Source: a virus. From it: 44,740 nt of DNA. The position numbers were made by a program, and so were the translations under genes. Positions within the stretch are counted from its first letter, which is position 1; each line of letters starts with the position of its first letter. Location of the stretch: positions 1-44,740 of IMG/VR virus record IMGVR_UViG_3300037808_001443. One strand, 5' to 3'. The notes beneath the pieces were generated by a model. The model saw only the letters and a program-made list of their open reading frames with translations, was not told the origin of the DNA and did not search any database. Shown piece after piece: positions 12,771 through 44,740 of the stretch.

Positions 12771-13883
12771 ATGATAGGTATCACCAACCAGCTGGCCGCC
12801 ACAGATGAGGCTCACGTCGGCGCCATTGTCGGCCCAGCTCTGATCGGCGGAGTAGCCGGGGCGCTCAATACGGCCTACGCTTGCAACGTGTCCGCCTTGT
12901 TTAGCACCAGCGAGGCGGACGGGGTCATGATAACTCATGGTGATGCTGATGGCCGCACCCTCTGGAGCTGGATAATCCAGCTGCCAACGCAGGGCGAGAA
13001 CTCGGTCAGCTTGAGGTTTAAAGGTATTGAGGACCCGCTGAGCAGTGGCTCCACTTTTGGCGACTTTGAGGCGCGAGCTGTGACAATGTCGGGGGTGGTG
13101 CTTAGCAGTTTCACAGCCACCTTTGACGGCATCAACGGCGCCGCCTTCTCTGCTGATATCAACCTCTCGATCCCGAGTGGCCACCAGACGATCACGCTTG
13201 ATATCGTCTGTATTGCAGACGGGCCAAACTCGGCGATCAGGCTCGACGCGATGCACGGACAGCTGGACAGACTCACCGCGCCAAACGCGCCACAATCGAT
13301 CACAACCGGAACGAAAATCGACCACAATGGCGGAGAGTTTCACCCCTCTGCGGGCGCCCCTTTTGCTCCAGCTGGAGCACTTTCGGCGGCTCTCGGCAAC
13401 GATCTGATCGATTCGATCGAGGCACTCATCGACAGGCCGCGCGCGCTGATCGTCTGGTCTGCTCCGAACAAGGCCAACGGACAACACCCTGTCGCGTTTA
13501 CTGACTACATGAGCTTCCCCACCCTCTCCATCGTTCGGCATGCAGTAGAGCGTGAGACGGCCCAGATCTTTATAAGGGCCGTTAACTTATCGCCAGAAGA
13601 CAGAACGCTGATCGTCTGCGCGTGTCACGGGTCTGGGCCTTTCCCTCGTGGAGGGGTGGCGCCTCAGTCTAAGTCGATCGTGATACCCGGCAACACACTG
13701 AGCCCCATCATCAAGCAGGCCAGCATAGAGATCCCCAACCGATCGAGACTCGGGGGATCAGTTCACAGGTATGCAGAGATCGGCATCCTTTCGCCTCGAG
13801 ACGCTCGAAGATATGCAGGCTTTGTAGGTGACTACGTCGAGCCGCTCATGGTCTTGGGTGTCTCTATATGGGGGCCGTCATGA
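12771..13883 (+). CDS. Unknown protein at head of lysis operon (370 aa)
   Basis: I do not recognise this protein. The first 200 residues look like a beta-sandwich (LRFKGIEDPLSSGSTFGDFE, TITLDIVCIADGPNSAIRLD). The rest mixes hydrophobic strands with a C-terminal VGDYVEPLMVLGVSIWGPS. Its stop overlaps the endolysin start (ATGA), so it is co-expressed with the lysis genes. It could be a virion or receptor-related protein placed in the late rightward operon; no motif allows more. A long opposite-strand frame (12693-13541) is judged a shadow. Confidence 0.7.
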   Translation: MIGITNQLAATDEAHVGAIVGPALIGGVAGALNTAYACNVSALFSTSEADGVMITHGDADGRTLWSWIIQLPTQGENSVSLRFKGIEDPLSSGSTFGDFEARAVTMSGVVLSSFTATFDGINGAAFSADINLSIPSGHQTITLDIVCIADGPNSAIRLDAMHGQLDRLTAPNAPQSITTGTKIDHNGGEFHPSAGAPFAPAGALSAALGNDLIDSIEALIDRPRALIVWSAPNKANGQHPVAFTDYMSFPTLSIVRHAVERETAQIFIRAVNLSPEDRTLIVCACHGSGPFPRGGVAPQSKSIVIPGNTLSPIIKQASIEIPNRSRLGGSVHRYAEIGILSPRDARRYAGFVGDYVEPLMVLGVSIWGPS

Positions 13884-34522: not shown

Positions 34523-35056
34523 TTAACCAGACGGCAGCAACTCCCCGCAATGGGGGCAGCTCATCGCGTCACCCCTGGCCCCCTCGGTGCCGGCCGCACC
34601 CTCATCCGTGGGGCTTGCGCCTAGCACGAGGTCGACGACGTTGGGCAGCTCGAGCGCGTCGAGTTCGTCATCGAACCAGAACTGACCGAGGTCTATCTGG
34701 TCAGACAGCCACGCAAGCGACTCTCTATCCCAGTCAAGACCGACCTCTGACGTGCGGTTATCTGCGACAGCTAGCGCGCGCCCCTGTGGGCTGTCTAGGT
34801 CAATGTCTGTCCGCTTGACTACCACGAGCCGGCGTCCGTCGCTCTCGACCAGTACAGCGTCGTCCAGGCCTATCGAACCGGCAGCCTCTGCGGTCTTGTT
34901 GCCCGCGATGATCCGCCCGTTCTTGTCAACGAGGATGGAGCGACCCGCGCCGAACTCGCGGAGGCTGTGCTCAATCATGCCGGCGCCTCTGGGGGTGCCC
35001 TTGTTCGCGTTGAGGTTGTCCGGCTTCAGCTCCTCGAGCTTAATCTCTTTCGTCAC
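34523..35056 (-). CDS. ParB-like nuclease-domain protein (177 aa)
   Basis: The N-terminal region KEIKLEELKPDNLNANKGTP and GRSILVDKNGRIIAGNKTAE is the ParB/sulfiredoxin-like domain with its IxxGN/AGNKT box; ALAVADNRTSEVGLDWDRES follows the usual phage ParB pattern. The C-terminus carries CPHCGELLP, a possible zinc knuckle. The GTG at 35056 is chosen because AGGGG precedes it; an in-frame ATG at 35074 is possible. Phage members are thought to bind or nick DNA near packaging genes. It lies next to the terminase on the opposite strand. Confidence 0.75.
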   Translation of the reverse strand: MTKEIKLEELKPDNLNANKGTPRGAGMIEHSLREFGAGRSILVDKNGRIIAGNKTAEAAGSIGLDDAVLVESDGRRLVVVKRTDIDLDSPQGRALAVADNRTSEVGLDWDRESLAWLSDQIDLGQFWFDDELDALELPNVVDLVLGASPTDEGAAGTEGARGDAMSCPHCGELLPSG

Positions 35057-35165
35057 TTTGCGCCCCTGTCGCATTGGCTTGCTCTGACTTCTCTGACTGC
35101 CACTTAGCCCCCACTATCAGCGCAGTAACGAGCGCCGCCATGATTACCGCCTCCCGCTTCGTCAT
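35040..35165 (-). CDS. Small membrane protein (41 aa)
   Basis: ATG at 35165; the frame reads MTKREAVIMAALVTALIVGA followed by a polar tail with KWQSEKSEQ. It overlaps the start of the ParB-like gene. One membrane segment (residues 7-20). It could be a real short gene or a chance frame; the overlap style matches other small membrane genes here. Confidence 0.35.
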   Translation of the reverse strand: MTKREAVIMAALVTALIVGAKWQSEKSEQANATGAQSDERD

Positions 35166-40947: not shown

Positions 40948-41520
40948 CTACTCCCCTTTCTTTGGCGGGCTGGCGTGCGCGCCGTTCGTGTTGATCTGCC
41001 TGTATGCGTAAAGAGCCAGGAGCCCCGCGTCCGCGATACCGTCGTGTGGTTTTCGCGCGCGCTCACTGCGTCGCAGGTCCAGGCCTGGCAATAGGCGGCC
41101 AGCGGAGATCACTGATCTCCCCTTATCCCTTCCTTGCCCTGGTGCCCCTGCTGTCATTGGCTTGTACCAAGTCGCCGGCGCTACCGTGAGATAGGGCCAC
41201 CCCATACCGGAGACGATGCCCTCCCATAGCCCGCCGCTGCGACCTAAGCTGTGACAGGCCTGGCGACCCTGAGAGCGCGCGCTGGTCGACTCGATGACGA
41301 CTAGATCCGGTTTGTCGTACTCGCCTAGGCCCGCCTCGTACGTTCTCGCCGGGAGCATTCGCAAGGCCTCAACCATCCCCCGGACGTCGTAGACTGTTCT
41401 TTTGCCCTTGGTGCCCCTAGGCACGGTGACAACAGGAACAGGCACAGAGAGCACCGGCTTGCCGTCGACCAACGCCACAAGAGCCCCGTCCAGCCCTGGA
41501 TCTATCCCCACGGTCAACAT
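40948..41520 (-). CDS. RuvC-like Holliday junction resolvase (190 aa)
   Basis: RNase H-fold signature with acidic residues in order: Asp7 (TVGIDPGLDG), Glu77 (LVVIEST), and Asp160/Asp164 (HDGIADAG). Length is close to bacterial RuvC (about 170-190). It would cut four-way junctions and branched DNA produced in recombination and before packaging. Its start overlaps the end of the DnaC-type gene. Confidence 0.83.
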   Translation of the reverse strand: MLTVGIDPGLDGALVALVDGKPVLSVPVPVVTVPRGTKGKRTVYDVRGMVEALRMLPARTYEAGLGEYDKPDLVVIESTSARSQGRQACHSLGRSGGLWEGIVSGMGWPYLTVAPATWYKPMTAGAPGQGRDKGRSVISAGRLLPGLDLRRSERARKPHDGIADAGLLALYAYRQINTNGAHASPPKKGE

Positions 41521-42377
41521 CGGCGCCGCCAGTCAGATCCAGAAACCTGAAGCATAAACCGCCCGCCGCCCGTGATGCCGAAGATCCGAGAGGTCGCGCG
41601 AATCCCTAGAACGTCCTCGAGATGGATCCCGCTGCTACCGTCTACGGTCGCATTGGTTGTGATGATGCAGCGTAAGCCCGGCGGCAGACAGTCGAGCATG
41701 TGAGTTGCTTGACCTTTTGCCCAGTCAGTGGTCGAGCCGTCTCCAAAGTCATCGACGACCACGACACCGTCAGAGCCTAAAACTTCAGCCCAGATCTCCC
41801 TCTCGCTGTATGCCGATTTCCCGCCGTAGGTGCTGCGGATCTTGTCTAGCAGGGACTGCCAGCGAACCCAGCGAACTGACACCCGTTGAGCAAGTAGGCG
41901 CCGGGCCAGATTGTACGCTAGGAACGACTTACCTGTGCCCGGCTTGCCTGTGAGGACTAGCGAATCATAACCGCCGTCACTAAGAGAGCCGGCCCACGCG
42001 TCAGAGATCGCGATCACATCGGCCTTTGCTGCCTTGTAGTCAAAGTGCTTGCCGTAGAACTTACTAGGAAGCGCCGCACGAGCGAAGCGCGCCGCGCGCC
42101 GACGAAGCGGCCGGCAGTCGTCACACCGTCTGGCCGTCCGGGTCTCAGAGTCAACGATCCACCCGTCACCCTGGTGGCACTCCTGACACCCTCCGGTGTA
42201 GGGCGGGCGGATCTTAACTAGAACGGTCTCACCTGTCGCATCGAACTCCAGGTGATCATTTGTCCAGCGGGCTGGCGCCGGGGGTGGAGAGGCGACAACG
42301 TCCGGCGGAGCTTCTGCCGATCGCCTCTCTCTCATGATGTTGATCAACTCGTCGCCGATAGTCTGTAAGGTCTTCAT
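41514..42377 (-). CDS. DnaC-type helicase loader ATPase with zinc finger (287 aa)
   Basis: The N-terminal zinc finger has Cys64-x-x-Cys67 and Cys85-x-x-Cys88. The AAA+ domain has Walker A LTGKPGTGKS (residues 142-151), Walker B VVVVDDFG (Asp209-Asp210), sensor I CIITTN, and a likely arginine finger in RATSRIFG. It would load the host replicative helicase at the phage origin. It directly follows the initiator gene (ATGA overlap), the lambda O/P-like arrangement. Confidence 0.85.
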   Translation of the reverse strand: MKTLQTIGDELINIMRERRSAEAPPDVVASPPPAPARWTNDHLEFDATGETVLVKIRPPYTGGCQECHQGDGWIVDSETRTARRCDDCRPLRRRAARFARAALPSKFYGKHFDYKAAKADVIAISDAWAGSLSDGGYDSLVLTGKPGTGKSFLAYNLARRLLAQRVSVRWVRWQSLLDKIRSTYGGKSAYSEREIWAEVLGSDGVVVVDDFGDGSTTDWAKGQATHMLDCLPPGLRCIITTNATVDGSSGIHLEDVLGIRATSRIFGITGGGRFMLQVSGSDWRRRC

Positions 42378-43177
42378 CTGTGCGCCTCGTATTTCACGCC
42401 CGATCGGAGTTCCTCGAGAACCCGTCTCATCCTCTCCTCTTCTTTGCGGGCTGAGATGTCAGGGTCTGGAGTTGGCGCGGCCTGGCCCCGCTTGGCCTGG
42501 AGTGTGTCTAGTATGTATCTGATCTGAATGAGCGCCCACGGCCGACCCCGTTTGAACGCAGCCTCGGCGCGGCTAGCAACTTCGGAGACAGCGAGAGAGA
42601 TCTGGATCTCTGAGTAACGACCACCGAGATCAGCTATGCCTCTCTCGATGGATGCGTCGCCTGCGGATCTCGACTGTCGACAATAGTCTCGCTCAGCCTT
42701 CAGCAGGCGCTGGACCGCGCTGCTGTCTCGCGCGATCACCGTAGGAGCTTCTTCTACCTTTATAATAGAGAGAGGTTTCTGTTTATTTAAAAGGGGCGGC
42801 CGCTGGCCACAGTTTTGAAGCCTCTGGCCACAGTCACTGTGGCCGCTGGCCACACGGTCAGGCCGGTCTACCTGTGGCCGCTGGCCACGATCACTGTGGC
42901 CGCTGGCCACGCCTGCCAATGGTATCGGGAGCGATATCGATCGGCCGACCCTTGAGAATAAGCCCGCCCTCTCCAGAGCCGTCAGCGCTCGACTGATCGA
43001 AGAGCGGCACGCGTCAACGAGATCGCGCAGAGATTCAGCGGAGTAGATCACGACCGACCCATCAGGCCCAGCCTTGACAGCCAGCGCGACAAGGACAGCC
43101 TTTTGGATCAGTGCACTAGAACGAGGGGCGGGAGCACAGGCCACCGTCCGCACCCACCTCAACGCCTCGGCGCTCAA
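42374..43177 (-). CDS. Replication initiator, winged-helix (lambda O-like), with internal origin (267 aa)
   Basis: The start is uncertain: a TTG at 43177 overlaps the previous stop, and GTG codons downstream are alternatives. The N-terminal third is a winged helix (AESLRDLVDACRSSISRALT then ALERAGLFSRVGR). Residues about 85-130 are encoded by the iteron cluster (42796-42910) and have a repetitive sequence (VASGHSDRGQRP, VASGHSDCGQRL, CGQRPP). The C-terminal part is helical (LLKAERDYCRQSRSAGDASI) and probably contacts the loader. Iterons inside the initiator gene match the lambda O design. Confidence 0.75.
   Translation of the reverse strand: MSAEALRWVRTVACAPAPRSSALIQKAVLVALAVKAGPDGSVVIYSAESLRDLVDACRSSISRALTALERAGLFSRVGRSISLPIPLAGVASGHSDRGQRPQVDRPDRVASGHSDCGQRLQNCGQRPPLLNKQKPLSIIKVEEAPTVIARDSSAVQRLLKAERDYCRQSRSAGDASIERGIADLGGRYSEIQISLAVSEVASRAEAAFKRGRPWALIQIRYILDTLQAKRGQAAPTPDPDISARKEEERMRRVLEELRSGVKYEAHR
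42745..42795. other. AT-rich segment beside iterons (possible unwinding element)
   Basis: CTTTATAATAGAGAGAGG and TTTCTGTTTATTTAAAAGG form the most AT-rich stretch of this gene and directly border the iterons, as in lambdoid origins. Function is inferred. Confidence 0.55.
42796..42910. repeat. Origin iterons: dyad repeats TGTGGCCGCTGGCCAC
   Basis: Three perfect 16-bp copies at 42838-42853, 42873-42888 and 42895-42910 plus two degenerate copies (42796-42810 and 42821-42833). Each has GTGGCC and GGCCAC around a central GCT, so each is itself a dyad. Two copies are preceded by TCAC. The neighbouring AT-rich segment completes an origin-like layout. Confidence 0.82.
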
Positions 43178-43446
43178 TTTAACGGGCCGATCAGCTTACC
43201 ACGGAGCGGACAGTGCTCCCTGTAGATCACGCCGTTACGCTCGAGCCATCCAAGGGAACGCCACAGCGTTACCCGTGTCATACACAAGACGTCTAAAAGA
43301 TCAGGGATATCCAGACGCACCGGCCCGCAGTTGTGATCAACCCTTCTGCAGATTTCAAGATAGACGGCCTTGAGGCCTAACGGTGAGACCCCCTCACGGC
43401 TCTGCGGCTCAAAGCGTCGCCGGCGTGACTCCTCATTAACTAACAT
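43174..43446 (-). CDS. Winged-helix DNA-binding protein (90 aa)
   Basis: The ATG at 43446 follows a near-ideal GAGGAGGTG ribosome site; a GTG at 43473 is in frame but has none. Residues 15-75 look like a winged helix (PLGLKAVYLEICRRVDHNCG, LDIPDLLDVLCMTRVTLWRS, LGWLERNGVIYREH). Probably a regulator or a replication accessory. It lies between repressor and initiator in the leftward operon. Confidence 0.68.
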   Translation of the reverse strand: MLVNEESRRRRFEPQSREGVSPLGLKAVYLEICRRVDHNCGPVRLDIPDLLDVLCMTRVTLWRSLGWLERNGVIYREHCPLRGKLIGPLN

Positions 43447-43480
43447 CGCGATCACCTCCTCTCGGTGTTTCACGATGTTA

Positions 43481-43508: not shown

Positions 43509-43541
43509 ATTCGATCATTGTGATCAAATATTGTTCAACCG
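43509..43541. promoter_or_regulatory. AT-rich operator-like sequence with GATC sites
   Basis: ACAAT and ATTGT arms flank TCGATC, followed by GTGATC and GTTCAAC. The AT-rich patch lies partly over the end of the repressor gene and may contain the promoter for the wHTH-initiator part of the operon. Confidence 0.4.
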
Positions 43542-43888
43542 CTACCGATGAGAGGGCTGATCGCTTCGTCGATAATTCGCTGAGCGCGGGTGACCATTAA
43601 CGAGCCACGCTTCAGCATGCTGAGCCCTGCCTTGAGTGTCTTCTTCTCCCCTTCTTTGGGTGCAGACTCTGGCACAAAGTAATCGATATCAACCCTCAGC
43701 GCCCTGGCTAAAAGGATTAGAGTAAAGGCATCACAGCCGGTATTGCCCAGCTCTAACTTTGAGAGGGTCGGCCGGTTTATGTTCAACAGCTCACAGAGCT
43801 CGGTCTGAGTTAAGCCTAGAGCCTGGCGCGCCTCGACAACGCGAGGGCCGAAAAAATCCCTGTACATTTTCTGATCATTCGTGTTCAC
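43535..43888 (-). CDS. XRE-family repressor (117 aa)
   Basis: A GTG start at 43888 (MNTNDQK) after AAGGGG is preferred; ATG at 43867 is the alternative. The N-terminal helix-turn-helix is typical XRE/Cro-C1: VVEARQALGLTQTELCELLN, NINRPTLSKLELGNTGCDAF, ALRVDIDYFV. The C-terminal tail is basic (KAGLSMLKRGSLMVTRAQRI). It faces the XRE gene at 44036 across a shared operator region and is the likely lysogeny repressor, heading the replication operon. Confidence 0.75.
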   Translation of the reverse strand: MNTNDQKMYRDFFGPRVVEARQALGLTQTELCELLNINRPTLSKLELGNTGCDAFTLILLARALRVDIDYFVPESAPKEGEKKTLKAGLSMLKRGSLMVTRAQRIIDEAISPLIGSG

Positions 43889-44035
43889 TTATTGCACACC
43901 CCTTCTAATGTCTGGCTGAGTAAATATGATCAATCGGCGCGCGCTACGTCAAGCAACAAAAGGCCCACAGAACCTGTACAGAAACCTCACTAAACCCGAA
44001 CACCCGTCAGCGTTGACGGCTATCGAGGCTGAACG
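43889..44035. promoter_or_regulatory. Divergent switch region between two XRE genes
   Basis: Contains TGATCA words near 43871-43876 and 43927-43932, a GTGTGCA word (43893-43899, - strand), the perfect palindrome CTGTACAG (43974-43981), and the inverted repeat CCGTCA-GCGT-TGACGG (44004-44019) just before the rightward start. These are candidate operators for the two regulators. Confidence 0.6.
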
Positions 44036-44341: not shown

Positions 44342-44740
44342 ATGGGAAGCATTAATAAGGTGATCTTGATCGGCCGACTAGGCGCCGATCCAGAACTACG
44401 AGACGCGGGAGGCTCTCAGGTGTGCGGCTTACGAATCGCAACGTCTGAGAACTGGACCGATCGAGACGGCGAGCGCCGAGAGATGACAGAGTGGCACGAT
44501 GTGAGCGTCTGGGGCAAACAGGCAGAAAGCTGCGCGCGCTTCCTCCAGAAGGGTCGAGAGGTCTGCATCGAGGGGCAACTCACAAGCAGGGAGGCCACGA
44601 ACAGGGAGGGGTCTACCGTTAGGTACTGGTCAATTAAGGCCCGGAGTGTCACGTTCCTAGGCTCAATGCGCGACGACCAGGGAGCCAGCCAAGGCAACCA
44701 AGGCAACCAAGGCAACCAAGGCAACCAAGGCAACCAAGGC
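44342..44740 (+). CDS. ssb: Single-stranded DNA-binding protein, N-terminal part
   Basis: This is the 5' part of the gene completed at 1-205. The ATG follows GAGTGAGAG. The OB-fold is clear: SINKVILIGRLGADPELRDA, CGLRIATSENWTDRDGERRE, TEWHDVSVWGKQAESCARFL, REVCIEGQLTSREATNREGS. With the joined 3' part the length is 158 residues, normal for a homotetrameric SSB. It lies between the Cro-like regulator and the excisionase/integrase genes. Confidence 0.93.
   Translation, partial: MGSINKVILIGRLGADPELRDAGGSQVCGLRIATSENWTDRDGERREMTEWHDVSVWGKQAESCARFLQKGREVCIEGQLTSREATNREGSTVRYWSIKARSVTFLGSMRDDQGASQGNQGNQGNQGNQGNQG
44614..44740. repeat. Second copy of the 127-bp terminal repeat
   Basis: Identical to 1-127 (checked base by base), including the five AACCAAGGC units. 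Confidence 0.95.

Follow-up and report, generated by a model that had tools for sequence, protein, structure and literature searches.

The window analysed here is the whole 44,740-nucleotide stretch, which is the entire virus record, and end comparison revealed that bases 1–127 are identical to bases 44614–44740. Because of these identical 127-bp ends, the record is a complete genome map of 44,613 bp, and the circle closes through a complete gene for a 158-aa SSB ending in DPIPF. The SSB tail contains tandem 9-bp units, GGCAACCAA, at 44683–44740, corresponding to GNQ repeats at the contig join. A ParB-like protein, named by eye, is encoded at 34523–35074 beside the terminase gene and is 55–87% identical in relatives. 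The locus of interest belongs to a leftward operon on the minus strand, the first gene of which (43535–43888, −) encodes a Cro/CI-type regulator (HTH_3, E = 1.4e-12); a promoter-like site, a consensus match only, precedes the operon at 43923–43952 (−). The next gene (43174–43473, −) encodes a possible HTH protein of 99 aa, with sub-threshold family matches only, which is placed like lambda cII; the idea that it is a duplicate of the initiator was rejected by comparison. The initiator gene itself, O-like and with a TTG start, occupies 42374–43177 (−) and encodes 267 aa. A gene for a DnaC-like helicase loader (41514–42377, −; phrog_50 E = 1e-24, IstB_IS21 E = 1.5e-7) lies directly downstream and overlaps the end of the initiator gene, the placement expected in a lambda-type module, and a DnaC-type loader had been named in this place by the sequence-only reading.

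The O-like assignment of the initiator comes from weak profile matches: HTH_Crp_2 (E = 0.0016, under Pfam's curated cut-off), phrog_4617, a replication initiation family (1e-4), and the O-like phrog_391 (0.0028), with the winged helix alone being matched in the two phrog families. The latter profile was matched by 15 of the 16 aligned initiators, and by lambda O through a different part of the profile. The TTG start is backed by the resemblance of MSAEALRW to MSADALRW in the related contig L050 and to MSVQAMTW and MSLQAMVW in other phages. AlphaFold2 (AF2) modelling of the protein gave a mean pLDDT of only 56.7, and the model is therefore read as a domain layout and not as a structure. Residues 22–85 (42923–43114, −) are predicted to form a winged-helix DNA-binding domain from helices and strands in a block with pLDDT mostly of 65–83, and they give Crp/MarR-type matches by sequence. 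A fold search with the low-confidence initiator model returned winged-helix matches only, including Crp/MarR-type ones, and none was significant. Residues 88–151 (42725–42916, −), with pLDDT below 50, are predicted to be a disordered linker encoded by the putative origin, and residues 151–258 (42404–42727, −) a C-terminal helical region, for which a contact with the loader or helicase is proposed by analogy with lambda O/P. The N-terminal winged-helix domain of a lambda-type initiator is thus indicated by AF2 and by the HTH_Crp_2, phrog and Crp/MarR matches, every single match being weak.

Within the initiator gene lies an array of short dyads. The exact 16-mer TGTGGCCGCTGGCCAC occurs on the plus strand at 42895–42910 (frame 0), 42873–42888 (frame +1) and 42838–42853 (frame 0), the last of which together with base 42854 makes a full 7-3-7 palindrome, TGTGGCCGCTGGCCACA. 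Degenerate copies on the same strand lie at 42816–42831 (three mismatches, frame +1) and 42795–42810 (two mismatches, frame +1). The five dyads span 42795–42910, i.e., positions 268–383 of the gene, which places them between the two predicted domains, within the part encoding the disordered residues 88–151, as in a lambda-type origin. Such an origin is also expected to carry at least four tandem inverted-repeat iterons at about 20–24 bp, and here five dyads were found with start-to-start spacings of 21, 22, 35 and 22 bp, a single 35-bp gap interrupting the 21–22-bp periodicity. Six iteron matches, the sixth being the palindrome read in reverse, were observed against a mean of 0.79 and a maximum of 3 in 100 dinucleotide shuffles. 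When synonymous codons were shuffled with protein and codon usage held fixed, not one of 3000 shuffles had an exact 16-mer or 14-mer that occurred three times, or a 12-mer that occurred four times. The three perfect and two degenerate 16-bp copies described from the letters alone are thus present in the coding sequence, and the array outdoes all 3000 synonymous shuffles. When clusters of at least four copies were sought throughout the window, only the array in the initiator gene was returned, and the circular genome holds no further forward copy within three mismatches, with none in the intergenic region.

The array is directly adjoined on its C-terminal side by an AT-rich segment at 42749–42793 (GC 0.27), which is proposed as a DNA-unwinding element. 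It is the most AT-rich 45-mer of the initiator gene, which agrees with the earlier description of iterons adjoining the most AT-rich part of the gene, and it also tops the circularised genome, except for the 45-mer one base to the left, which ties or exceeds it. An AT-rich segment of about 40 bp in this position is a further property of lambda-type origins. The plain cumulative GC-skew has its minimum at 44005, 1.1 kb from the array, and the detrended skew at 13532; since the plain minimum tracks gene orientation and the detrended one is elsewhere, GC skew is not decisive for the origin.

Direct searches with the initiator and loader found no relatives among viral contigs, and the initiator had no match in annotated phages, where loader matches were weak and partial. 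Scans with RecE, the loader alignment and genome contigs yielded little or nothing. When the whole collection was scanned for paired TGGCCnnnGGCCA dyads, 29 loci came up, which were rejected as related origins and read as chance because none had an initiator, loader or neighbour relative at a meaningful E-value. Relatives of the lineage were found through the terminase and portal proteins, the nearest of which (L034 and L035, terminase 89% identical) stop short of the initiator. Dyad iterons are present at the same place of the initiator gene in all six lineage relatives with a complete initiator, and their sequences are all unlike that of the window. They are GCACnCTnAGnGTGC in L050, TGACAGCCTGTCA and related dyads at 21–24 bp in L051, TGGGGACTGGTTCCCCA with variants five times at 21 bp in L085, GTTGCACCATGCAAC at 29–31 bp in L043 and L045 (initiators 95% identical), and GTGCAACCATTGCAC at 30 bp in L047, in which the array alone does not exceed its shuffles. 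The partner gene encodes a loader in L050, L051 and L085, those of L050 and L051 being 33–36% identical to the loader of the window, and a DnaB-type helicase in L043, L045 and L047. An intact initiator gene lacking iterons, which would have spoken against an origin here, was therefore not encountered in any of these six relatives. The comparison shows that the place of the putative origin is kept in the lineage while the iteron sequence is replaced.

Several further observations were made in the same contigs. A DnaB-type helicase gene is found in L040, L042, L043, L045, L047 and L048, with terminase and portal conserved; it follows the initiator directly in L042, L043, L045 and L047, the place taken by a DnaC-like loader in the window, L050, L051 and L085. 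Since either a helicase or a loader directly follows the initiator within one lineage, replication modules have been exchanged there. Other repeats were noted away from the initiator, namely 5–6 copies of TGTAACAAATGTA at 10-bp multiples between terminase and recE (L037, 9279–9400; L040, 11170–11320) and a 21-bp repeat, TTGAGTGCGTCAT, present in five copies between the portal gene and the ParB-like gene (L046, 7981–8080).

The initiator of L051 led to annotated phages of Pseudomonas, Arthrobacter and Streptomyces, and a second search added more. With 60 or 25 shuffles per phage, the array, at the corresponding place of the initiator gene, stood above all shuffles in 17 of 19 annotated phages, in L060 and L096 by a single point; the arrays of the remote phages L093 and L094 were not above theirs. 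Lambda O, passed through the same detector as a positive control, returned the four iterons of its annotation, with spacings of 20, 24 and 23 bp and spread over three frames, and an AT-rich flank. In the Pseudomonas phages JBD68 and vB_Pae_U2 and the Arthrobacter phages Coral, Andrew and LittleTokyo, the winged helix begins with M-S-x-x-A-M-x-W, like that of the window, and dyads or half-sites, mostly at 22 bp, start from about gene position 290 and are followed by an AT-richer stretch. They differ from the window in their core half-site, GGGGTGnC or GGGGTGnA, and the three Arthrobacter phages also in having a methyltransferase gene next. None of the annotation tables consulted lists an iteron feature.

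In lambda, gene O carries its iterons in mid-gene; they are imperfect inverted repeats of 19 bp that bind O dimers, and a 40-bp AT-rich region follows them (PMC7466680, PMC5043065). Tandem inverted-repeat iterons in mid-gene at about 20-bp spacing and in several frames, an AT-rich segment immediately downstream and a loader gene thereafter are thus common to lambda and the window. It had been suggested from the letters that dyad iterons set the window apart from lambda; the dyad form does not, as the lambda iterons are inverted repeats as well, while the GC-richness does, and the window iterons are in addition unrelated in sequence and contain one 35-bp gap. Moreover, the loader of the window is DnaC-like and not lambda P, and its initiator has no significant overall similarity to lambda O. 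As direct sequence homology is weak, the window origin was not filed as lambda O itself. In phages P22 and L, the two versions of gene 18 have different iterons, each set within the coding region of its own gene (PMC8022706). These origins share with the present ones the distantly related initiators, each with its own iteron set in the gene, and the same turnover; the partner gene 12 encodes a DnaB-type helicase, in contrast to the loader of the window, and it is L043, L045 and L047 that resemble the P22/L arrangement. The sequences of the putative origin sites in the window are new, while the in-gene arrangement has long been known and was found in almost every related phage examined.

Taken together, the array, its AT-rich neighbour, the loader gene and the conserved position in relatives make it very probable that this region serves a temperate phage as its replication origin, which would be of the lambda ori/O type and lie inside the initiator gene. 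This is the best-supported reading, and it is the one that had been put forward from the letters by parallel with lambda O/P. Since palindromes are typical of the sites of HTH proteins and several HTH genes adjoin, the dyads could be imagined as operators through which the initiator or a neighbouring HTH protein autoregulates the operon, with the origin elsewhere. We consider this improbable, as the array is situated mid-gene, far from the promoter-like site at 43923–43952 and with no intergenic copy, and is paired with the most AT-rich 45-mer of the genome. Furthermore, relatives repeat the mid-gene place with a loader or helicase gene alongside, which is how the origins of lambda and P22 are known to be laid out.

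The peptide encoded by the iterons is repetitive, with VASGHS occurring twice and (R/C)GQRPQ-like stretches three times, and a joint constraint on peptide and DNA had been suggested for this reason. The five iterons are, however, read in frames 0, 1, 0, 1 and 1. As two frames are used for identical iteron copies, it is the DNA and not the peptide that is conserved in the array; the two are not jointly constrained, and the peptide stretch is predicted to be disordered. The same observation refutes, for the window, the idea that a repetitive peptide was selected for or duplicated and that the DNA repeats are its by-product. One shared frame is indeed used in L051, L085, L047, L095 and L097, as that idea would have it, but three frames are used in the Arthrobacter phages and in lambda, no synonymous shuffle out of 3000 matched the array, and the lineages share the dyad form but have wholly different peptide sequences. 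We regard a peptide-driven array as highly improbable. We propose that in the origin-encoded, predicted disordered linker the protein sequence is free to follow the DNA.

Just as improbable is that the array is an iteron origin of the plasmid (RepA) type or a centromere for partition. Tandem repeats do lie near a winged-helix protein, and a ParB-like gene (named by eye) is present at 34523–35074, but the repeats are palindromic and in-gene, unlike the non-palindromic direct repeats, usually outside the gene, of RepA origins. Moreover, a ParA gene was not seen next to the array, and 8 kb separate the array from the ParB-like gene, which sits by the terminase and is conserved there in relatives. 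Plasmid iterons are bound by monomeric initiators and those of lambda by dimers (PMC5043065).

For the lambda-type origin, the following course of initiation may be envisaged. Dimers of the initiator would use their N-terminal winged helix to bind the five dyads, and the resulting complex would strain the adjacent AT-rich 42749–42793 segment, which would open. The C-terminal helical part may then recruit the DnaC-like loader encoded downstream, which would deliver the host DnaB helicase, and leftward transcription may activate the origin.

The relatives also bear on how the sites may be recognized. The half-site GGGGTGnX was found with nine Arthrobacter and three Pseudomonas-type initiators (L055, L060, L061, L063, L088–L092 and L057–L059, L059 being a faecal phage). 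In the six phages with the helix RSVQRKL, X is C in every copy, and in the six with N or Y as the helix residue, X is A in every in-register copy. L061 is of the Arg type and L063 of the Asn type at 80% identity, and the covarying base differs in every copy of the array. As the phages are related, the covariation represents few independent changes. Pairing of Arg with guanine and of Asn with adenine is consistent with general protein–DNA contacts. This covariation provides indirect evidence that the winged helix may read the iterons. We tentatively suggest, as a possibility that we would not yet call probable, that the wider family follows a recognition code in which one iteron base is determined by the variable residue of RSVQ(R/N/Y)KL: C (G on the other strand) by Arg, and A by Asn or Tyr, with all in-register copies changing together. 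When extended by eye to the lineage of the window, the rule fits the window, L051, L047 and L056; it is not claimed as general because L043/L045 and L085 do not fit.

For a lineage of uncultivated temperate phages, these results locate the most likely origin, and they extend the pattern of lambda, P22 and L to further viruses. The covariation in relatives offers a means, itself testable, of predicting the specificity of origins. If the code were general, sequence alone could suffice to predict where uncultivated phages have their origins and to sort these into compatibility groups, and this would apply to the window (Arg, half-site GTGGC) as well.
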